The notes under the pieces are model-generated. The model worked only from the letters and a program-made list of their open reading frames with translations. It was not told the DNA's origin and made no database searches. From NCBI RefSeq assembly GCF_025232395.1, contig NZ_CP065938.1:186001-250000 (forward strand): a stretch of 64,000 nt of DNA, written 5' to 3'. Positions 8,208-37,200 of the stretch are shown piece after piece. Position numbers and translations under genes: made by a program. Each line of letters begins with the position of its first letter. Positions within the stretch are counted from its first letter, which is position 1. Origin of the DNA: Taurinivorans muris (GTDB taxonomy: Bacteria > Desulfobacterota > Desulfovibrionia > Desulfovibrionales > Desulfovibrionaceae).

Positions 8208-11200
8208 ATGAAAATTTGGAATAAAATTTTTTACTTAGCTGTATTTTTTATATTTTGTTCTTCTGCTCATGCGAAAAATTCCGTTGAATATATACGCTAT
8301 TTGGCGGAGCAAACTTCTGTGAACGAAATTGCGGAAAATAAAGTGATACGTATTGTGCAGGGAATGGACCCTGTTTATTTGAATTTTTCTGCTGATGAAA
8401 AAGTTTGTAAAGAAAAATACGGAGATAAGGCATTTGAAATTTGCGGACGCAGTTTTCAGGATATCCTGCCTGAAACCGGTCAAATTCAAATAACCCCGAA
8501 AATGGAAGGAAAATGGCAATGGCAGTCTGATTTTTCGCTTGCGTTTTATCCCAGTAAGGAATGGAAAGCCGATACAAAATTTTCCGTACAGTTCGGGAAA
8601 GAGTCTTTGCCGAAACTCACGGTGATCACAAAGCCTGTTCAGTTTACAACGCAGGCGCTCAAGCCCAGCATTGTCGGTGATTTTAAATTTGATCCTGAAC
8701 ATGCTGAAACCATGATGATCACAGGTTCCGTATCGTTCAATTACCAAGTGGACAGGGAAAGTCTGGAGTCCAAAATTCATGTTGTTCCTGTGAGCACGGG
8801 TGCGGTGACACTTGGAAAAATGGAAACAAACTTTCATAACGGGACTTTGTATTTTTCCATTCCCGTGCTGAAAGTGAGCGATAAGGCAGCTGACGTGAAA
8901 ATTCAGCTTTTTGCCGGTGTGCAGGCTGTTTCAGGGGGAAAATTGGCCTCTAATCATGAATATGTGATTAAAGTTCCGTCAAAAAGTGAAATTTTTAAAT
9001 TCATCGGCAGCGAAGCAGGTATTGAGGAATTGCCCGATCTGTCTGCCAAGCAAAATATCGTTGCGGAATTCAGCCTGCCTGTTCTTCCCAAACAGTTGGA
9101 AGATAAAATCCACGCTGTTCTTTTGCCCCGTGAAAAAGTGCAGACGGAAGAGGCGAAGGACAACCCGCCTTACAAATGGTGGTCTTTTGCGGAAATCAGT
9201 CCCGACGTATTGAAAAAATCTGAAAATTTGGAGCTTTCGTTCTTGAATAACAGGGAAGAAAATACGCGTTTCATAATGCTTGCACCGCAAAACGCTGTTG
9301 AGGCGGGGCGCTGCGCGTATCTGACCATTTCCGCGCCTGTACAAGGTCCGGACGGTTTCGTCATTGATAAGGATATTCATTTGCTGGTGCAGTTTGATGC
9401 GTTGCAAAGCGTGATGAAAATCATGCAAAAAGGTTCGCTGCTTTCTTTGCGCGGGGATAAGAAACTTTCCTTGTATGCACGCAATGCGGATGAAATTCAC
9501 TATATAGTCAGGCAAATCCGCCCGGAATTTATTAATTCCTATATTCCCTTATTAAAACAAGCCCAATACGGACAAGTTCACGGTGAAATGCTTGACAGCA
9601 TGAGTATCGTGCATGAGGGAAGTCTCCCCTTAGCCTTTACTAATGCGGAAAAAGCGCAGTTCGCTTCTTTGGATCTGGCGCCTTTCCTGAAAAATGACAA
9701 AGGTTTTTTCCATATAACAGTTGAAGCGAAAAAAGAAGGTGCGGTAACTGCTGCCGATTCCCGTTTCATTATGCTCAGCGATTTGGGACTTATTGTGAAA
9801 GCTGACGACAGCGAAGAGAACGTGCAGGCGTATCTTACTTCCTTGGCCGCGGGAAAGCCTGTCAGCGGAGCTGAAATTGAAGTTTTGGGAGCGAACGGCA
9901 TAGCCCTTTTCAAAGGGAAGACGGATAGGAACGGCGTTGTTTCTTTGCCTTCCTTGGCGGGCTATGAGCGGGAAAAGCAAGTGGTTGCCATTGCCGCAAA
10001 ATTTAAAGATGATATGGCAGTTCTTCCTTATGTTGATTATCAATTCATTTTGCGTCCTCAAAACAGAACGGACACCTCCGGAAAAGTTTTTTCCGAAACG
10101 AGTTTGAATGGTTTTATTTTTACCCAGCGCGACATGTATCGTGCAGGGGAAACCGCATATTTCGGTTTTATTTTAAAACAGGAAAATATGAACGCCGGAC
10201 TTGAAAACATGCCTCTTCTCGCAACTGTGTACGCAAGCAGCGGCAAAATACTCCGTAAACAAAAAATTACCGTATCCAAGCAGGGAATGGGGGAATTTTC
10301 CTGTAAAATTCCTGAAAACGCCGTGAGCGGCATGTATCGTTTTCATATTGAAAAAGCGGATAATTCCGCGTCATTGTTGGCGAAAGATTTTTATGTCATG
10401 GATTTTACGCCGGACACTATCAAGGCAAAGCTTGAAAATAATCTTACCGGAGTAAAAAAATGGTATGGCAGAGAAGACTTGCAGGATTTAGCGTATACGG
10501 TAACCGTCGAAAATCTTTTCGGTTCGCCTGCAATGGGCAATACTGTCAAGGCAAGGCTTATCGCTTCGCCCATGCAGTTTGCTTTTGATAATGAATATAA
10601 AGACTTCATTTTTTATGACGCAGGCAAAGCGGAGAAAAGCAATGTGCAGGAACTTGGCAGCTTTGTCACGGATAAGGAAGGAAAAGCGGATATAAAAATT
10701 GATGTCAATGCAATTGGATATGAAAGCTTGGCTTTGACGCTGCAAGCAGAAGTTTTTGACGCGCAGGGCGCTTCCAACATCCTTGTTAAGGATTTGCTGT
10801 ATGTTTCACCCCTCAGCGCCGTGCTCGGGTATAAGACGCAGAGCAATTTGGCGTTTTTGACACAGCAGGAAAAAGCGAGTCTTGAAATCATCGCTTTGGA
10901 TATGTTTGCAAAACCTTATGCGATGGGCGAGCTTGCCGTTGAATTGTATCAGTCTGATTTTGTGAAGAGTTTGGTTAAAGTTAACGGAAAATACCAATAT
11001 ACGAAAGTTCGGCGCGAAAAGCTGCTTTCGACGGGTTCCGCCCAGCTGAACGGTGAGCTTTTGCATTTCAGCCTTGATACGTCCGAAGTGGGCGAAAAAC
11101 TGCTTGTGTTCAAAGATAAAAAGGAACGTGTTGTTTTGCAGGTCCGCTATACCGTTGTGGGAGACAGTTCCGTGCAGTTTGACGAATATAAGTCGGCGGA

Positions 11201-13940
11201 TTTGCAGGCAGCTGTCGACACAAAAGAGTATAAGACCGGCGAGAGCATAAGAGTAGCTTTGAAAACCCCTTACGAAGGATCGGGGCTTATTACAATCGAA
11301 CGTGATAAGGTTTATGCCGCAAAATGGTTTGCAGCCGATAAGGGAAATAGCGTTCAATCCATTGAAATTCCTGAAGGACTGGAGGGAAAAGCGTATATCA
11401 ATGTTTTGTATTTTAGGGACATTGAAGATGAAGAGATTTTTGTGGAGCCTTGCGCAAGCGTGGTTTTGCCGTTTACCGTTGATGTGTCCAAACGCAAGCT
11501 TGGTTTGGAACTTGAAATAGCAAAGGGTGAAAAAGATTTTGTCGCCCGTCCGGGACAGGAGTTCACAGTGCAGGTTCGCACGGATGAGCCGGCAAAAGTG
11601 CTTGTTTATGCTGTTGACGAGGGTATTATCCGCCTGACGGGCTATCAGCGTCCGAATCCTTTGCAGGAGCTTTTCCTGGACAGGGCGCTGTCCGTGCAAA
11701 CATATCAATATTTGGATATGCTTATGCCTGAATTTTCTCTTATGCAAAAGCAGCTGGCAAAGTTCGGCGGGGATATGCTTTTTGCCGCAAAACATGAAAA
11801 CGCGCTGCGAAGCGCAGGGGTAAATCCTTTTAAAGTGAGGGATTACAAGCCTGCTGTTTTCTGGTCAGGACTTTTGGATGTCGATAAAAAGGGCAAAGAA
11901 ATAAAAATTCCCGTGCCGGATACCTATAATGGCAATATGCGTGTTTTTGCCGTGGCTGTTTCCGATACAAAAGCCAATGCCGCGCAAAAAGATGTTTCGT
12001 GCCAAGCCGAAATTGTCGTGCAGCCTTATCTTCCGTTTTTCGTTTCTCCTACGGATGAATTCGAAGCGACTCTTTTATTGACGGATATGCGTAAGGATAA
12101 GCGTTTAAAAGATATTGAATTGAAAATGGATTTAGGCTCAGCCTTTGAGTTGGTCGGAAAAGATACGCTCGCTCTCGTTCTTGAAGAGGGTAAGCAAAAC
12201 ATTGTACGCCTGCGGATAAAAGTGAAAGACGGCGATGATATTTTCGGTGAAAAAACGCTTCGCTTCATAGTGACGCAAAAACAGTCAGGCTTGAAGCAAA
12301 CAATGCCCGCAATGCTTTCCGTGCGCCCGGCTTCTGCTCGGTATGGCACGGTAACGCTTGGCATGCTTTCGGAAAAGAATAAAAAATATGCGGAAGACAT
12401 TGTTCTTTCACGAAAACTGTATCCGCAGTTCGCAATGCTTTCCGCAAGTGTTTCATCTGCACCTATCCCGTATGTGCAGGCGCTCTTGCAGCGTAATGCT
12501 TGGTTTTGCTATCCAAGCACCGTGCAGCGCGTGGCAAAGGCTATGCCTTTGTTATATCTTTTGGAAAATAAGCAATACGCTCCGAAACTGGACGATTTTT
12601 CAGAAGAAAAAATACGTTCCCAAATCATGGAGTGTCTGCAAATTCTTGAAAGCCGTCACACGTACCGCAATGTTTTCTACCGTTGGGATAATTACGGGTC
12701 CTTATCCGTCTACGAGCTTGCTTTTGTTTTTGATTTTCTTACCACCGCAAGGGAAAAAGGCTTTGCCCTCGCAAGTTATCTTTTTGAAGACATAAAGAAC
12801 GCGTTGCAGGAAAAATTAGCGCATATGCCGAGCGATCTGGAAGAAGCGAGAGCCATTGCCTACGGCGCTTGGGGATTGACCCGAAACGGCATAATCACGT
12901 CTCAAATCATGGCGAATTTGACAACATGGCTTGAGCAAAATGTGAAGAATTGGGAAAGCGATATTGCGGCATCTTTAATGGCGGGTTCCATGAAGCTTAT
13001 GATGCAGGACGAACTTGCCGGTATGTTTATTGAAAAATATATGCCTGCAATGCAAAATGCGGGAAAATATCCCGCAGGTTTTGACAGCCTTTCGGAACGG
13101 GCTTTATATGGGGAAATTGTTGCAAAACATTTTCCTGAAAAATTGGAAAGCGAGAAGAGCAAGCAATATATGCAGGAACTTTACAGTTTATTGCAGGAAT
13201 ATTTCGCACAGAGTTCCGAAGCGCTGGCGATACGTACCATCATCGAAACCGGCGCCCGGCAGGATGTTGAAATCATTGCTTCCTATTTGGCTTTTGCGGA
13301 TAAGGCGGGAAATGTTGTTTCTTCCAACGTTGCGGAAACGGAAGATACTGTTTCGCACAGTATAAGCCTGGAAGACAGCGATGGGATTGTTTCCGTCAAT
13401 ACTGTGCGGATACAAGCGGAAAAACCGCTTTTTTACCAAGTAAGTGTCAGCGGATATGATAAGGATCGTTTCGCAGGGCAAGGCAAGCAGGCTTTTTCCG
13501 TAACCCGTGAATATCGTGATGCGGACGGCGCTCCTGTGAAAGCGTTCCGGGTCGGGGAAGAAGTTGTCGTGGTGATAAAAGCGAAATCACAGACAGGCAA
13601 GTCCGAATCCGTCATGATTACGGATATTTTGCCTGCCGCTTTTGAATTTATTGCCGTGCCGTCTGCTGAACCGCTGCGCCTTGGAACCATGCAGGGCAGG
13701 AGCGATGCCGGCGTATTGCGGGACGAAGCAGAAATGCAGGTTGAATTTGCAGACAAACTGGAAGACAGGGCTTTGCTTTTCGCAACTCTTGAAAACAGGG
13801 AAACGGTTTTTAGTTATAAAGTGCGCGTAAGCAATAAAGGAAATTTTGTTTTGCCTGACATCACCGTGCAGTCTGCGGAAAATCCTTTGCTTTACGCTCG
13901 TGACTTAACCATAAAAGATACGAGAATTGTTGCAGAATAA
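8208..13940 (+). CDS. Bacterial alpha-2-macroglobulin (YfhM-like), apparently without a thioester
   Basis: Very large (1910 residues) periplasmic protein of the bacterial alpha-2-macroglobulin family, thought to trap invading proteases when the outer membrane is breached. A signal peptide (residues 1-22, cleavage after AHA) has no lipobox cysteine, so it is probably soluble. Middle and C-terminal parts match the family's MG/A2M domains: SGKVFSETSLNGFIFTQRD, YVVDEG-like VYAVDEGIIRLTGYQ, and VFWSGLLDVDKKG. The thioester CxEQ motif expected around residue 1435 is missing: the region reads WFCYPSTVQRV, and CxEQ occurs nowhere in the protein. It is about 250 residues longer than E. coli YfhM. pbpC follows after 3 bases, the classical pairing that links protease trapping to peptidoglycan repair. 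Confidence 0.88.
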   Translation: MKIWNKIFYLAVFFIFCSSAHAKNSVEYIRYLAEQTSVNEIAENKVIRIVQGMDPVYLNFSADEKVCKEKYGDKAFEICGRSFQDILPETGQIQITPKMEGKWQWQSDFSLAFYPSKEWKADTKFSVQFGKESLPKLTVITKPVQFTTQALKPSIVGDFKFDPEHAETMMITGSVSFNYQVDRESLESKIHVVPVSTGAVTLGKMETNFHNGTLYFSIPVLKVSDKAADVKIQLFAGVQAVSGGKLASNHEYVIKVPSKSEIFKFIGSEAGIEELPDLSAKQNIVAEFSLPVLPKQLEDKIHAVLLPREKVQTEEAKDNPPYKWWSFAEISPDVLKKSENLELSFLNNREENTRFIMLAPQNAVEAGRCAYLTISAPVQGPDGFVIDKDIHLLVQFDALQSVMKIMQKGSLLSLRGDKKLSLYARNADEIHYIVRQIRPEFINSYIPLLKQAQYGQVHGEMLDSMSIVHEGSLPLAFTNAEKAQFASLDLAPFLKNDKGFFHITVEAKKEGAVTAADSRFIMLSDLGLIVKADDSEENVQAYLTSLAAGKPVSGAEIEVLGANGIALFKGKTDRNGVVSLPSLAGYEREKQVVAIAAKFKDDMAVLPYVDYQFILRPQNRTDTSGKVFSETSLNGFIFTQRDMYRAGETAYFGFILKQENMNAGLENMPLLATVYASSGKILRKQKITVSKQGMGEFSCKIPENAVSGMYRFHIEKADNSASLLAKDFYVMDFTPDTIKAKLENNLTGVKKWYGREDLQDLAYTVTVENLFGSPAMGNTVKARLIASPMQFAFDNEYKDFIFYDAGKAEKSNVQELGSFVTDKEGKADIKIDVNAIGYESLALTLQAEVFDAQGASNILVKDLLYVSPLSAVLGYKTQSNLAFLTQQEKASLEIIALDMFAKPYAMGELAVELYQSDFVKSLVKVNGKYQYTKVRREKLLSTGSAQLNGELLHFSLDTSEVGEKLLVFKDKKERVVLQVRYTVVGDSSVQFDEYKSADLQAAVDTKEYKTGESIRVALKTPYEGSGLITIERDKVYAAKWFAADKGNSVQSIEIPEGLEGKAYINVLYFRDIEDEEIFVEPCASVVLPFTVDVSKRKLGLELEIAKGEKDFVARPGQEFTVQVRTDEPAKVLVYAVDEGIIRLTGYQRPNPLQELFLDRALSVQTYQYLDMLMPEFSLMQKQLAKFGGDMLFAAKHENALRSAGVNPFKVRDYKPAVFWSGLLDVDKKGKEIKIPVPDTYNGNMRVFAVAVSDTKANAAQKDVSCQAEIVVQPYLPFFVSPTDEFEATLLLTDMRKDKRLKDIELKMDLGSAFELVGKDTLALVLEEGKQNIVRLRIKVKDGDDIFGEKTLRFIVTQKQSGLKQTMPAMLSVRPASARYGTVTLGMLSEKNKKYAEDIVLSRKLYPQFAMLSASVSSAPIPYVQALLQRNAWFCYPSTVQRVAKAMPLLYLLENKQYAPKLDDFSEEKIRSQIMECLQILESRHTYRNVFYRWDNYGSLSVYELAFVFDFLTTAREKGFALASYLFEDIKNALQEKLAHMPSDLEEARAIAYGAWGLTRNGIITSQIMANLTTWLEQNVKNWESDIAASLMAGSMKLMMQDELAGMFIEKYMPAMQNAGKYPAGFDSLSERALYGEIVAKHFPEKLESEKSKQYMQELYSLLQEYFAQSSEALAIRTIIETGARQDVEIIASYLAFADKAGNVVSSNVAETEDTVSHSISLEDSDGIVSVNTVRIQAEKPLFYQVSVSGYDKDRFAGQGKQAFSVTREYRDADGAPVKAFRVGEEVVVVIKAKSQTGKSESVMITDILPAAFEFIAVPSAEPLRLGTMQGRSDAGVLRDEAEMQVEFADKLEDRALLFATLENRETVFSYKVRVSNKGNFVLPDITVQSAENPLLYARDLTIKDTRIVAE

Positions 13941-13943
13941 TCA

Positions 13944-16292
13944 ATGCTGGAAAGAATAGGCACAAGACTGAAAAACAAAAAGAGCGTTGTTCTTTTGTTT
14001 TTGCTTGTGCCGTTTTTTCTTTTTACGGCAAGCGTTGTTTTCAGCGCCAAGCCGCTTTTATATGAAAAAGCGGAATTTTCTTGGCTTATTCGGGACAGGC
14101 AGGGGAAATTGCTGTGGCTCAGCCTCAGCGAAGACCAAAAATACCGTTGTTTTGTGCCGTTGAAGCAAATTCCGCAGGCTGTGCTTGAAGCAACTCTCCT
14201 TTATGAAGACAGGGATTTCTATGAGCATTCGGGAGTGAATTTTTTATCCCTTGGCAGAGCTGTGTACAGCATGGCAAGAGGAGGACGCAGGATTGGCGCG
14301 TCCACTATCACCATGCAGCTGGTCCGTCTTTCCGAACAAACGAAAACGGATACTGTTTTCACGAAAATACAGCAGATTTGGCGGGCTTTCATTTATGAAT
14401 TTCATTATACGAAAGATGAAATTTTAGAGGCTTATTTGAATTTGGCTCCTTACGGTTCGAATGTCGAGGGAATCGGAGCGGCTTCGTTAGTGTGGTTCCA
14501 TAAAAATATTCAGGAATTGAACCTTGCGGAAATCATCGCTCTTGTGACCGTTCCCCAAAACCCAAGCGCCAGAAATCCGTTAAAAGCTTCAAACAATCAA
14601 TGGAATGAGGCGCGTAAACGTTTATTTGCGTTGTGGGACAGTCAAAAACCGAACCCTTACAACAGTTTTTTCGCCGAGTTGCCTTTAAAGGTTTTTGCCC
14701 CAAAAGATTTGCCTTTTTATTTTCCTCATACCGTGCTTGAAATTTATGCGGACAGACCTCGGAAAAAGAAAAGGGATTTTCCGGAAGAACAAGTCATACA
14801 AACAACTCTTGATTTGGAACTGCAAAAAGAATTGGAAAATGTTTTGACGCAGTACCTTGCGGATAAAAAGCCCTATGGCATGGAAAACGGGGCTATGGTG
14901 CTCGCGGATTGGCAAACAGGGGAAATTCTTTCCTTGGTCGGGTCGGCAAATTTTTACAATGTCCGTATCAGCGGGCAAATTGACGGAACAAATATCCCCC
15001 GCTCTTACGGTTCGACCCTGAAGCCCTTTATCTACGCTCTTGCTTTGGAACAGGGGCTTATCCATTCAAAGACCATATTGCTGGACACTGAAAGAAGTTT
15101 TGCAGGCTATGAACCTGAAAATGCGGACGGAAAATTCAGCGGGCCGCTTTATGCTGACGAGGCGCTGAAAAAAAGCAGGAATATTCCCGCAATCCGATTG
15201 GCGGAGCGTTTATCTTCGCCTGATTTGTATGAATTTCTGCAAAAAGCGGGGATAGTCTTTCCCCGTAAGAAAGAACATTATGGCTTGGCGCTTGTTTTAG
15301 GGGGGGCGGAAATCCGTTTGCGTGATTTGGCGGGCTTGTATGCAATGCTTGCCAATCGGGGATTTTACCGCAAGCTTACGTATTATGCCAAGGAGAAAGA
15401 AAAAGAATTTCCGCTGCTTAGTTCGGAAGCAAGCTATATCACGCTGAAAATGCTTGAAACGAAATCGCTTTTTCCTTTCGGTTCCGTTTTGTCTTCGTGG
15501 AAAACCGGAACGTCGAACGGACAGCGGGACGCTCTTACGGCGGGAGTTTTCGGTCCTTATGTTTTAACGGTTTGGATAGGAAATTTTGATGCGAGCGCCA
15601 ACCCCAATTTCATTGGTTCGCAGGCGGCTTTGCCTTTGTTTTTTCAGGTGGCGGAAAGTTTGCAAAGGTTGAAGACCGGCTTTGACAAGGCTTGGTACAC
15701 CAAGGACAATCTTAATATCAAGGAAATTGAAGTCTGCGCCTCAACAGGGGATACCGATCTTTCGCTGTGTGGGAATAAGCCGAAAGTGCAGGCATATTTT
15801 ATTCCTGCAAAATCACCTATCAAGGAAACAGGGGTGCTTCGGAAAATTTTAATCAACACGCAAACAGGACTTAGGGAATGTAAGGAAATCGAAGGAGTTA
15901 CCAAAGAAGAAATTTATGAGTTTTGGTCTTTGGAGCTGCAGCGTTTGTTTGCGAAAGCGGGTATCCATAAAGAACCGGTTCCGCCTTACAGTTTGCAGTG
16001 TCTGCAGGAAATTCCCCGGTATCAGGGAAATGCCCCGCAAATTATATCTCCCGTTAATGGGGTGTTATATCAGCAAGATATGAAAAATTCACAAACAATT
16101 TCCCTTCTTGCCGACGCCGATGCCGATGTTGATATTGTGCATTGGTTTGTTGATGATGCGTATTTAGGGCATACGAAAAAAAATTCGAGTCTGTCGTATG
16201 TACCGCAGGCGGGTGTGCATACTGTTTATGCCGTTGATGAATTTGGGCGTTCCGGTTCTTTGACTTTTAAGGTTGAAAAAGCGGGTTTTTAA
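13944..16292 (+). CDS. pbpC: Penicillin-binding protein 1C (bifunctional peptidoglycan synthase)
   Basis: Class A penicillin-binding protein of the 1C type, 782 residues. A single membrane anchor lies at about residues 15-33. The glycosyltransferase domain has catalytic E88 in LLYEDRDFYEHSGV and then ASTITMQLVRL. The transpeptidase domain has the SxxK serine S357 (STLK), an SRN triad and KTG at 520-522. A C-terminal BiPBP_C domain (about 695-782) ends the protein, as in PbpC. It starts 3 bases after the alpha-2-macroglobulin stop with no clear ribosome site, implying coupling. PbpC's physiological role is unsettled; the gene pair suggests wall repair coupled to protease defence. Confidence 0.93.
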   Translation: MLERIGTRLKNKKSVVLLFLLVPFFLFTASVVFSAKPLLYEKAEFSWLIRDRQGKLLWLSLSEDQKYRCFVPLKQIPQAVLEATLLYEDRDFYEHSGVNFLSLGRAVYSMARGGRRIGASTITMQLVRLSEQTKTDTVFTKIQQIWRAFIYEFHYTKDEILEAYLNLAPYGSNVEGIGAASLVWFHKNIQELNLAEIIALVTVPQNPSARNPLKASNNQWNEARKRLFALWDSQKPNPYNSFFAELPLKVFAPKDLPFYFPHTVLEIYADRPRKKKRDFPEEQVIQTTLDLELQKELENVLTQYLADKKPYGMENGAMVLADWQTGEILSLVGSANFYNVRISGQIDGTNIPRSYGSTLKPFIYALALEQGLIHSKTILLDTERSFAGYEPENADGKFSGPLYADEALKKSRNIPAIRLAERLSSPDLYEFLQKAGIVFPRKKEHYGLALVLGGAEIRLRDLAGLYAMLANRGFYRKLTYYAKEKEKEFPLLSSEASYITLKMLETKSLFPFGSVLSSWKTGTSNGQRDALTAGVFGPYVLTVWIGNFDASANPNFIGSQAALPLFFQVAESLQRLKTGFDKAWYTKDNLNIKEIEVCASTGDTDLSLCGNKPKVQAYFIPAKSPIKETGVLRKILINTQTGLRECKEIEGVTKEEIYEFWSLELQRLFAKAGIHKEPVPPYSLQCLQEIPRYQGNAPQIISPVNGVLYQQDMKNSQTISLLADADADVDIVHWFVDDAYLGHTKKNSSLSYVPQAGVHTVYAVDEFGRSGSLTFKVEKAGF

Positions 16293-16390: not shown

Positions 16391-16480
16391 AAAATGTTAT
16401 TTTATAACTTCCTAAAAAGATTATGTTAAAAAAATCCATGTCTGTTTGACTTTTTGTGAATTTTGATTATTAAAAATCCA

Positions 16481-16717
16481 TGAGATGAAGCGAAACGCTT
16501 TAGGGAAAACGGTGCAAATCCGTTGCGGACCCCGCCGCTGTAACCCGGACATTTTTTGCAATATGCCACTGAAAATTTTTTTTGGGAAGGTACAAAAAAT
16601 GGATGAAGGGAAGCCAGAAGACCGATCTCACACATACAGGAAAATCTTTCGGTGGAAACAGAGATTTTTCGTTTTGCCGTCCTGTATGCTGTTAAAAGTG
16701 ATACAGGTCTTTTTTTA
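16481..16717 (+). promoter_or_regulatory. Cobalamin (B12) riboswitch with terminator-type expression platform
   Basis: Conserved adenosylcobalamin aptamer blocks appear in order: GGGAA, GGTGCAAATCCG, GCGGACCCCGCCGCTGTAA, GCCACTG (16564), GGGAAGG (16584) and the B12 box AAGCCAGAAGACC (16610). The closing stem P1 is TGAGAT (16481-16486) with ATCTCA (16625-16630). The expression platform is visible. CCTGTAT (16681-16687) can pair with ATACAGG at 16701-16707 to make a terminator followed by a T-run, or with an identical ATACAGG at 16634-16640 to make an antiterminator, whose inner stem is AAAATCT / AGATTTT (16641-16647 / 16662-16668). It controls nrdD. The expected logic, by analogy, is that B12 turns off the B12-independent reductase. 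Confidence 0.95.
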
Positions 16718-16750: not shown

Positions 16751-19102
16751 ATGGAAAAGAGAATTAGCAGTATTATCAAAAGGGACGGAAAAAAAGAACC
16801 CTATAATGAATCGAAAATCCAAGCGGCAATTTTTAAAGCCGCAAAAGCTGTTGACGGAGTTGACGAAGAAAGGGCGAGGATTTTAGCGTATAAAGTGAAT
16901 GCGTATATTCTTGAAAAAGGCGTCGGCGAACTTGAATATGCTGATGATTCGATTGAGTTTTACCAAGTGAATATTGAAGATATTCAAGACAGCGTCGAGA
17001 AAATCCTTATTGAAAACCAACACGCGAAGACAGCGAAAGCTTATATTTTATACAGAAAGCAAAGAAGCGACATCCGCGATGCTTCCGGGGCTTTAATGAA
17101 GCTTATGAAGGAGCTGACGTTTTCCGACAGCAGACATTGTGAAATGAAGCGTGAAAATGCCAATATCGACGGCAATTCAACCATGGGGACCATGCTTAAA
17201 TACGGCAGTGAAGTCGCCAAGGATTTCAATAAGAAGTTTTTAATCCGTGAAGAGCATGTCAAAGCCTATGAGCAAGGAATTATTCATATCCATGACATGG
17301 AATTTTATGCTTTGACCCTGAATTGCCTGCAGATTGATGCGGGTAAGCTTCTTGACGGCGGTTTCAACACGGGACACGGCGCATTGCGTTCTCCGAGCAG
17401 TATCGGCGCTGCGGCGACTTTGCTTTGCATCATCATTCAAAGCAACCAAAATGAGATGTTTGGCGGGCAATCTGTGCCGACCTTGGATTTCAGCCTTGCT
17501 CCTTATGTTGCATGTTCATATATTAAAAATATCCTTTTATATTTGGAAGCGAATTTTAATAATGACGATCTTGCTGCCGATGTCAAAAATGCACTGAAAG
17601 CGTATCATGCCGGGCATAGACTGCTTATGAATGATGAGGCGAAAAAAGCTTTGCTTGGAATGTTAACGGAATTTGCTCAAAAATACGCTGTCGATGTTGA
17701 CGCGAAAAAAGCCTTGGATTTTGCTTACAAGCGCACGGATAAAGATACGTATCAAGCTATGGAGGCATTGATTCATAATCTTTGCACGCTTAATTCCCGG
17801 GCGGGAAGCCAAGTTCCTTTTTCGTCCCTGAATACCGGCATGGACACATCCGAAGAAGGGCGCATGGTCACGAAGAATTTGTTTCTTGCGACAGAAGCGG
17901 GGCTTGGCAATGGTGAAACGCCTATTTTTCCGATTTCCATATTCAGCATGAAAAAAGGCGTCAACAGAAAGGGCGATCCCAATTATGATTTATTCCGTTT
18001 GGCATGCCGCTGTTCCGCAAAACGTTTGTTTCCGAATTTCAATAATATCGATTCCAGTTTCAATAGTATCTATTATGACGGTAAGCCTGAAACCATCTGC
18101 GCCGTGATGGGGTGCCGGACTCGTGTGCTTGGCAATGACTATGCACCCGATAAGGCGGTTACTCCGGGGCGGGGAAATTTGTCTTTTACAACCGTGAACC
18201 TGCCTTATCTGGCTTTGCTTGCACGTTCCGAACATCCCGAATTGGAAGGGGAAAAACTTTTCAATGCGTTTATGGAGATGGCGGAGCAATATATTCGGTT
18301 GCTTTTTGAGCAATTATTGGATAGGTTTGAAATTCAAGCGAAACGAAAGGCAAGGAATTATCCTTTCCTTATGGGACAAGGTGTTTACCTGGGCAGTGAA
18401 AATTTGCGTCCCGACGATGAAATTCGCGAAGTGATCAAGCACGGAACGTTATCCATAGGTTTCATCGGGCTTGCGGAATGCTTGGTCGCCCTTTTCGGAA
18501 AACATCATGGAGAAGATGCCGTTATCAATGAAAAGGGCGTTGCCGTCATAAAATACTTTCATGACCGCTGCAAAGATGAAACAAAGCGTACCGGATTGAA
18601 CTTCAGTCTTATCGCAAGTCCTGCCGAGGGCTGTTCCGGACGTTTGCTGCGTCTGACCCGCGATAGGTTCGGCGTGCTGAAAGGAATAACGGATAGGGAT
18701 TATTTCACCAATTCTTTCCATGTGCCGGTTTTTCATCCTATCCGCGCATGGGATAAAATTCAAATTGAATCACGTTATCATAAATACTGTCTTGCGGGTG
18801 CGATCAGTTATATTGAAGCGGCTGAGGATTTATCGCCCAATATTGACGCGTTTGAAACTATCGTTACGGCTATGGCGGATTCCGATATGGGATATTTTTC
18901 CATCAATCATCCCGTGGACCGTGACCCTGTTTGCGGCTACGTCGGAATAATCGGGGATACGTGTCCGCGCTGCGGGCGGCATGACGGCGAGGGCTTGCCT
19001 TTGTCCGTTTTGAAAAAAGTGCGGGGATACAGCCCTGACCCGAAATATGCCCGTTCCTATGCCACGGTTCAGGAAAAAGACGATACATTGCCCAATAAAT
19101 AA
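16751..19102 (+). CDS. nrdD: Anaerobic (class III) ribonucleoside-triphosphate reductase NrdD
   Basis: Makes deoxyribonucleotides without oxygen using a glycyl radical. An N-terminal ATP-cone (about residues 1-95, with IIKRDGKKEPYNESKI) senses dATP/ATP. The 10-stranded barrel body includes NSRAGSQVPFSSLN, and the C-terminal glycyl-radical loop is KKVRGYSPD with G759 as the likely radical site. The adjoining zinc site shows only three cysteines, C728, C738 and C741; the position expected to hold the first of four reads Asp. The 783-residue length is normal. A B12 riboswitch precedes it; the activase nrdG and a separate glycyl-radical-like domain follow. The RGY radical loop differs from the RVCGYL of E. 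coli NrdD, suggesting another NrdD subfamily. Confidence 0.95.
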   Translation: MEKRISSIIKRDGKKEPYNESKIQAAIFKAAKAVDGVDEERARILAYKVNAYILEKGVGELEYADDSIEFYQVNIEDIQDSVEKILIENQHAKTAKAYILYRKQRSDIRDASGALMKLMKELTFSDSRHCEMKRENANIDGNSTMGTMLKYGSEVAKDFNKKFLIREEHVKAYEQGIIHIHDMEFYALTLNCLQIDAGKLLDGGFNTGHGALRSPSSIGAAATLLCIIIQSNQNEMFGGQSVPTLDFSLAPYVACSYIKNILLYLEANFNNDDLAADVKNALKAYHAGHRLLMNDEAKKALLGMLTEFAQKYAVDVDAKKALDFAYKRTDKDTYQAMEALIHNLCTLNSRAGSQVPFSSLNTGMDTSEEGRMVTKNLFLATEAGLGNGETPIFPISIFSMKKGVNRKGDPNYDLFRLACRCSAKRLFPNFNNIDSSFNSIYYDGKPETICAVMGCRTRVLGNDYAPDKAVTPGRGNLSFTTVNLPYLALLARSEHPELEGEKLFNAFMEMAEQYIRLLFEQLLDRFEIQAKRKARNYPFLMGQGVYLGSENLRPDDEIREVIKHGTLSIGFIGLAECLVALFGKHHGEDAVINEKGVAVIKYFHDRCKDETKRTGLNFSLIASPAEGCSGRLLRLTRDRFGVLKGITDRDYFTNSFHVPVFHPIRAWDKIQIESRYHKYCLAGAISYIEAAEDLSPNIDAFETIVTAMADSDMGYFSINHPVDRDPVCGYVGIIGDTCPRCGRHDGEGLPLSVLKKVRGYSPDPKYARSYATVQEKDDTLPNK

Positions 19103-19112
19103 GGAGATTGTT

Positions 19113-19289
19113 ATGCAACATCAAAAGAATGAGGACGAACTTGTCGGCGAAGGAGTCCATTTTTCAAGGATACGACGTATCACGGGATATTTGGTCGGTG
19201 ATATGGACAGGTGGAATGATGCGAAAAAAGCTGAAGAAGCGGACAGGGTGAAACATTTCACTGACAAAGATTGTTTATGCAGACACTAG
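19113..19289 (+). CDS. Free-standing NrdD glycyl-radical-like domain (58 residues)
   Basis: Small protein with a strong ribosome site (AAGGAG) 10 bases after nrdD. Its core, RIRRITGYLVGDMDRWND then EEADRVKHF, resembles the C-terminal glycyl-radical tail of E. coli-type NrdD (RRVCGYLG ... RRVKHL); G25 in ITGY aligns with the radical glycine. The preceding NrdD already carries its own radical loop (VRGY), so this is a second, separate copy of the module. By analogy with YfiD/GrcA, which repairs damaged pyruvate formate-lyase, it might be a spare radical domain, or a subunit used by another NrdD. Its C-terminus (DCLC) adds two cysteines. Its 3' end overlaps nrdG by 13 bases. Function is inference. 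Confidence 0.75.
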   Translation: MQHQKNEDELVGEGVHFSRIRRITGYLVGDMDRWNDAKKAEEADRVKHFTDKDCLCRH

Positions 19290-19816
19290 ATTTGTCCGTT
19301 GAAGAACATACGCTTTTAAAAAATACTGTTGTCCGCCTTGCGGGGTATCAGCATGAAAGTGTTGTTGACGGTGCGGGAGTAAGGACAACCGTATTTTTTC
19401 AAGGCTGCGACTTTCATTGTGTGGGCTGTCATAACGGGACGACGCATGATAAAAACGGAGGAATGCTTACAAGCGCTTTGGATATTTATCGTGAAATATA
19501 CGGAAGCAAGCTGGCTGGCGGCGTAACGTTTTCAGGCGGAGAACCTTTTTTGCAGGAAGAAGCATTGCTCGCGCTTGTGAAAGTTTGCAAAGCGAAAGGA
19601 CGGAATATCGTTATCTACACGGGGCATGAAGCGGAAGAACTGCTGACGGTTTGTTCCGCGGAAAAAGCGCGGTTGCGGCGGGAGATTTTAAAATACGTTG
19701 ATACCGTCATTACGGGACGTTTTGTGCAGGAATTAAAAACAGCGGAAAAACCTTTTGTGGGCAGTTCCAATCAGGAAATTTACGAGTTGGCGGTCCATAA
19801 TCCATGGAATGAATAA
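19277..19816 (+). CDS. nrdG: Anaerobic ribonucleotide reductase activating protein NrdG
   Basis: Radical SAM activase that installs the glycyl radical in NrdD. 179 residues from the ATG chosen here (a TTG two codons earlier is possible). The cluster motif is C44, C48, C51 in GCDFHCVGCHN, preceded by the family's ESVVDGAGVRTTVFFQG. GGVTFSGGEPFLQ is the SAM-binding stretch. The gene overlaps the small glycyl-radical-like gene by 13 bases, so nrdD, the small gene and nrdG form one tightly coupled unit under the B12 riboswitch. It could in principle activate both glycyl-radical loops. Confidence 0.94.
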   Translation: MQTLDLSVEEHTLLKNTVVRLAGYQHESVVDGAGVRTTVFFQGCDFHCVGCHNGTTHDKNGGMLTSALDIYREIYGSKLAGGVTFSGGEPFLQEEALLALVKVCKAKGRNIVIYTGHEAEELLTVCSAEKARLRREILKYVDTVITGRFVQELKTAEKPFVGSSNQEIYELAVHNPWNE

Positions 19817-36991: not shown

Positions 36992-37076
36992 GCCCAGGTG
37001 GTGGAATTGGTAGACACACTACTTTGAGGTGGTAGCGCTGCGAGGCGTGGGAGTTCGAGTCTCCCCCTGGGCACCA
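36992..37076 (+). tRNA. tRNA-Leu (anticodon GAG), copy 1
   Basis: 85 bases including encoded CCA. Acceptor GCCCAGG pairs perfectly with CCTGGGC; anticodon arm CTACT-TTGAGGT-GGTAG gives anticodon GAG, reading CUC/CUU. It has the long variable arm of a class II tRNA and TTCGAGT in the T-loop. Confidence 0.97.
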
Positions 37077-37115: not shown

Positions 37116-37200
37116 GCCCAGGTGGTGGAATTGGTAGACACACTACTTTGAGGTGGTAGCGCTGCGAGGCGTGGGAGTTCGAGTCTCCCCTTGGGCACCA
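37116..37200 (+). tRNA. tRNA-Leu (anticodon GAG), copy 2
   Basis: Identical to copy 1 except for one base in the 3' acceptor strand (CTTGGGC instead of CCTGGGC), which changes a G-C pair to G-U. 39 bases separate the two. CCA is encoded. Confidence 0.97.

Follow-up and report, generated by a model that had tools for sequence, protein, structure and literature searches.

A cobalamin riboswitch upstream of nrdD-nrdG in Taurinivorans muris and its predicted kissing-loop terminator switch

The nrdD-nrdG locus and its leader

The genome of T. muris, a gut bacterium of the family Desulfovibrionaceae, is a single contig of 2,172,708 bases, and the whole stretch of DNA analyzed here (the window, 64,000 bases) corresponds to its positions 186001-250000. 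Between a penicillin-binding protein 1C (PBP1C) gene, which ends at 16292, and the nrdD-nrdG genes, the window contains a leader with a cobalamin riboswitch and a series of predicted switching helices (window coordinates, strand in brackets):

16446-16473 (+): probable sigma-70-like promoter (TTGACT, 16-base spacer, TATTAA), in an upstream block conserved in the genus alignment
16466-16644 (+): full-length cobalamin riboswitch aptamer (RF00174, E = 1.5e-24)
16481-16486 (+): 5' strand of P1, TGAGAT, read from the sequence, with its partner ATCTCA at 16625-16630
16529-16534 (+): loop L5, ACCCCG, from the Rfam structure line; its CCG (16532-16534) is complementary to the CGG of L13
16633-16641 (+): predicted antiterminator, 5' strand CATACAGGA, which includes the first ATACAGG
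16639-16670 (+): predicted P13 hairpin, GGAAAATCTTT / AGAGATTTTTC, with loop L13 CGGTGGAAAC at 16650-16659
16680-16688 (+): predicted antiterminator, 3' strand TCCTGTATG, overlapping the 5' arm of the terminator
16681-16707 (+): predicted terminator hairpin, CCTGTAT...ATACAGG, to which the window adds GCT/AGT (16688-16690/16697-16699)
16708-16717 (+): T-rich tract TCTTTTTTTA
16751-19102 (+): nrdD, class III anaerobic ribonucleoside-triphosphate reductase (NF005497, 910.6 bits; TIGR02487; PF13597)
19271-19816 (+): nrdG, activating radical-SAM protein, start codon uncertain (PF13353; TIGR02491, 119 bits, slightly below the cut-off of 126.1)

The Rfam covariance model RF00174 (Cobalamin) matches this leader end to end (model positions 1-189) and scores 102.6 bits where the gathering cut-off is 31.5. 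It thus bears out the original prediction of a cobalamin riboswitch, which was given as starting at 16481, the base at which P1 begins. The promoter is a probable one; its -10 hexamer is TATAAA in the congeners, versus TATTAA in the window. A strict consensus scan of the locus called neither a promoter nor a terminator, probably because of the bulged terminator stem with its long loop and the deviating -10 hexamer. The assessment of the platform helices rests on folding and conservation.

The gene downstream encodes a B12-independent enzyme, as repression of the isoenzyme type by B12 requires (NrdD by PF13597 and NF005497, its activase NrdG by PF13353). The NrdD protein is 99% identical to that of the metagenome-assembled genome Desulfovibrio sp. 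UBA8003. Horizontal acquisition of nrdD was considered and set aside, as the same long type occurs in other members of the family at 51-55% identity. Elsewhere in the window, a bacterial alpha-2-macroglobulin gene is directly followed by the PBP1C gene (8208-16292), and two near-identical tRNA genes lie in tandem about 40 bases apart (36992-37073 and 37116-37197).

Competing helices of the expression platform

Downstream of the aptamer and just upstream of nrdD-nrdG, the heptamer ATACAGG occurs at 16634-16640 and again at 16701-16707, and its reverse complement CCTGTAT lies between the two at 16681-16687, as originally noted. This order (7-mer, reverse complement, same 7-mer) arises in 0.12% of 20,000 dinucleotide shuffles of a 110-base region. 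Conservation of the helices is much stronger evidence. In the longer platform alignment (five aligned sequences from four species of the genus), standard pairs are kept in 30/30 pair cells of P1, 45/45 of the antiterminator, 35/35 of the terminator, and 54/55 of P13, and P1 is paired in all five sequences. Sequence, folding, and conservation thus all point to a terminator followed by a T-tract and an antiterminator that share a strand, and the proposed competition of the two for CCTGTAT is supported, with the main helices kept in 5/5 sequences.

No change is seen across the four species in the first copy (CATACAGG), in CCTGTATGC, or in CCTGTATG, which both the terminator and the antiterminator require. 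The only variants of the second copy are ATGCAGG and ATACGGG, whose pairing is retained through G-U. As most of these pairs are invariant, covariation as such provides weak evidence; the sole compensatory change (C-G to T-A at 16659/16671) falls within an inner extension of the antiterminator that lacks conservation in two of the four species (20/25 and 15/20 pair cells). With 7 bp, three of them G-C, plus the bulged 3-bp extension, the terminator stem is short. In folding computed without tertiary contacts or ligand, as were all energies given here, the terminator-side and antiterminator-side folds of the window are nearly equal (-21.6 vs. -20.6 to -21.8 kcal/mol, according to where the ends are set), with the antiterminator ahead until the 3' arm of the terminator has been transcribed, as expected of a co-transcriptional switch.

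A further complementary pair, AAAATCT/AGATTTT, forms the core of the 11-bp hairpin GGAAAATCTTT/AGAGATTTTTC. Because this hairpin lies just after P1 and has a CGG in its loop that is complementary to the CCG of L5, we assign it to P13/L13. The L5/L13 complementarity is CCG/CGG in all four species and extends to CCCG/CGGG in the congener G039 and in many relatives, whereas it amounts to only 3 bp in the window. When the window is folded, P13 stands beside the terminator in the terminator-side fold and is opened in the best antiterminator; across the four species, the antiterminator without P13 beats that with P13 by 2.7, 7.0, 6.9, and 7.6 kcal/mol. The free terminator-side fold of two congeners, G086 and G101, lacks the full P13, another inner hairpin being preferred by 1.5 and 3.5 kcal/mol respectively, which suggests that P13 in these species would need the kissing contact. 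Such a contact is known from the metE riboswitch of Priestia megaterium, in which mutational mapping placed the kissing pair between the CCG of L5 and the CGG of L13, and P13 was found to promote the terminator (PMC10653944).

NrdJ, B12 genes, and the distribution of the nrdD riboswitch

The original prediction also expected a class II reductase elsewhere in the genome, and the B12-dependent NrdJ is indeed encoded there (NF006417, 1204.8 bits; TIGR02504, 731.8 bits). The genome encodes no other PF02867 protein, and no large subunit of a class I reductase was found. A search for B12 synthesis genes likewise identified a corrin-synthesis cluster at 825-837 kb, consisting of cbiL, cbiC, cbiD, a cbiF-G-H fusion, cbiA, a tetrapyrrole-methylase/methyltransferase gene (cbiE/T-like), and an aminotransferase-CobQ fusion (CobQ/CbiP-like). 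Outside this cluster lies cbiK (NF047852, 171 bits, below the cut-off of 400), which is preceded by the only other B12 riboswitch of the genome (RF00174, 68.7 bits; locus L002, 1501-1668, reverse strand). This second riboswitch ends at the cbiK ribosome-binding site with no terminator seen, and probably acts translationally.

Among 149 genomes of the family, RF00174 is present in 137, NrdD in 141, and a TIGR02504 match in 127 (123 over the cut-off), and a riboswitch precedes nrdD in more than 30. Aptamers in the leaders were called by cmscan, as a crude regular expression missed most of them. We compared 43 family members that have the NrdD type of the window and an assembled, readable upstream region: the riboswitch precedes nrdD in 19 of the 29 with NrdJ and in 1 of the 14 without it (Fisher p = 0.0003, with kinship ignored and with NrdJ absence from draft genomes never certain). 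When only genomes at least 90% complete are counted, the riboswitch is found in 14/22 and 1/10 respectively (p = 0.007). Ten of the 29 relatives with NrdJ have no riboswitch on this nrdD type. In four genera (g7, g13, g20, and g42), the riboswitch is missing from the NrdJ-less members and present in at least one NrdJ-bearing member.

The sole NrdJ-less genome with the riboswitch, G086, is probably explained by an assembly gap, since the neighbor gene of nrdJ that is present in G039 and G101 is missing as well; the reading that it truly lacks NrdJ, in which case B12 would stop its only reductase, was set aside. When 13 upstream regions from NrdJ-less genomes were searched at E up to 1, they yielded one degenerate remnant, in G130 (L135, 3880-4094, reverse strand; 21.8 bits, below the cut-off), where it lies upstream of nrdD and looks like a decaying switch; NrdJ was not found in this genome. 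The nrdD match contains one in-frame stop in each of the relatives G068, G114, and G130 (loci L127, L131, and L135). In another member of the genus of T. muris (G067, 96% completeness), NrdJ is present, NrdD was not found, and there are three cobalamin riboswitches.

Proposed mechanism and comparison with known systems

We propose, with a probability of roughly 85%, that nrdD-nrdG is controlled by a cobalamin riboswitch with an L5-L13 kissing loop that represses by terminating transcription. On binding of adenosylcobalamin or a different corrinoid, the CCG of L5 (16532-16534) would dock on the CGG of L13 (16650-16652) and fix the P13 hairpin, which would take up the GGA of the antiterminator strand along with the loop. 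CCTGTAT would thereby be left free to pair with the second ATACAGG, and this hairpin with its T-tract would end transcription before nrdD, so that a cell with plentiful B12 would rely on NrdJ. Without corrinoid, P13 would yield and CATACAGGA would pair with TCCTGTATG, an antiterminator that in the window may be lengthened by CGGTG/TGCCG, which also consumes L13; the terminator would then be blocked and the B12-independent reductase NrdD-NrdG made. The sequence shows the aptamer, the helices with their conservation, the gene content, and the association with NrdJ; the ligand, the kissing contact, termination, the direction of control, and the promoter are inferred. Overall, the model appears ordinary but well supported.

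The original prediction assigned AAAATCT/AGATTTT to the antiterminator, such that AAAATCT:AGATTTT inside and ATACAGG:CCTGTAT outside would form one stack without B12 and be lost on B12 binding. The two helices are compatible on paper, and the energy of their combined fold is below zero, at -17.9 kcal/mol for the window, but in the four species it is 2.7-7.6 kcal/mol worse than the antiterminator with the hairpin open, and the hairpin matches P13 in its position and its CGG loop; P13 promotes the terminator in a dissected cobalamin riboswitch (PMC10653944). We therefore consider such a stack quite unlikely and the antiterminator role unsupported and probably wrong; P13, the kissing-loop hairpin of the terminating state, is the better reading of AAAATCT/AGATTTT.

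Control could instead be exerted mainly by translation or message stability, with the 3' hairpin being an inefficient terminator. The short, A+T-rich stem that the simple scan missed would fit this, as would the cbiK riboswitch, which stops at its ribosome-binding site, and a crude scan of 36 nrdD leaders in the family, which found terminators in only about half (a rough count, as some wrong sites were picked). However, all four species preserve the T-rich tract and the pairing of the stem while the remaining leader drifts, and more than 30 bases separate the end of the hairpin from the start codon, which places it away from the ribosome-binding site; this reading is therefore unlikely. It is very improbable that B12 binding favors the antiterminator and raises nrdDG expression: corrinoid activation has a precedent in A. 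halodurans, in which P13 itself is the antiterminator (PMC10653944), whereas here P13 is compatible with the terminator and overlaps the antiterminator, a repressing layout, and there would be little sense in B12 inducing a B12-independent enzyme when NrdJ is present.

Under the repressing, terminating model, the locus would offer a clean, testable case in which a cofactor determines the choice between two essential isoenzymes. The corrected anatomy of the platform suggests specific mutations that would discriminate between the two switching models. The known picture is left unchanged: the nrdD-nrdG riboswitch and its logic are not new. In 2004, Rodionov and colleagues reported B12 elements upstream of nrdDG in Desulfovibrio vulgaris, of a related Desulfovibrio lineage, and in Desulfuromonas, noted NrdJ in all delta-proteobacteria studied, and proposed the same switching logic (PMC545781). 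The family-wide association of the nrdD riboswitch with NrdJ backs that proposal with more genomes, and the originally predicted silencing of nrdD-nrdG under plentiful B12, with NrdJ substituting, is likewise supported and already published for this bacterial group (PMC545781). Riboswitch family, target operon, NrdJ elsewhere in the genome, and proposed logic are all shared; what sets the present case apart is only the species, the A+T richness of the expression platform, and, for part of the family, the NrdD subtype.

The second riboswitch of this genome, before cbiK, also belongs to RF00174 but differs in its apparently terminator-free end at the ribosome-binding site. In Streptomyces, a B12 riboswitch before nrdABS represses a B12-independent reductase where a class II enzyme is present, and differs in its class I target and actinobacterial aptamer. 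The P. megaterium metE riboswitch resembles the nrdD riboswitch, as proposed here, in being repressing and transcriptional, in its B12-independent isoenzyme target, in the CCG:CGG complementarity of L5 and L13, and in a P13 that promotes the terminator (PMC10653944). Its antiterminator uses the 3' side of P13, whereas that of nrdD would draw on a strand that starts directly 5' of P13 and runs into it and, in the window, on L13 too. It is possible, though doubtful, that the nrdD riboswitch has been lost repeatedly along with NrdJ in this family, its presence then serving as an indicator of class II/class III redundancy, and that the platform has a layout undescribed in the literature cited here, in which the antiterminator is drawn from the P1-P13 linker and, in some species, L13, and the kissing loop competes with it directly.
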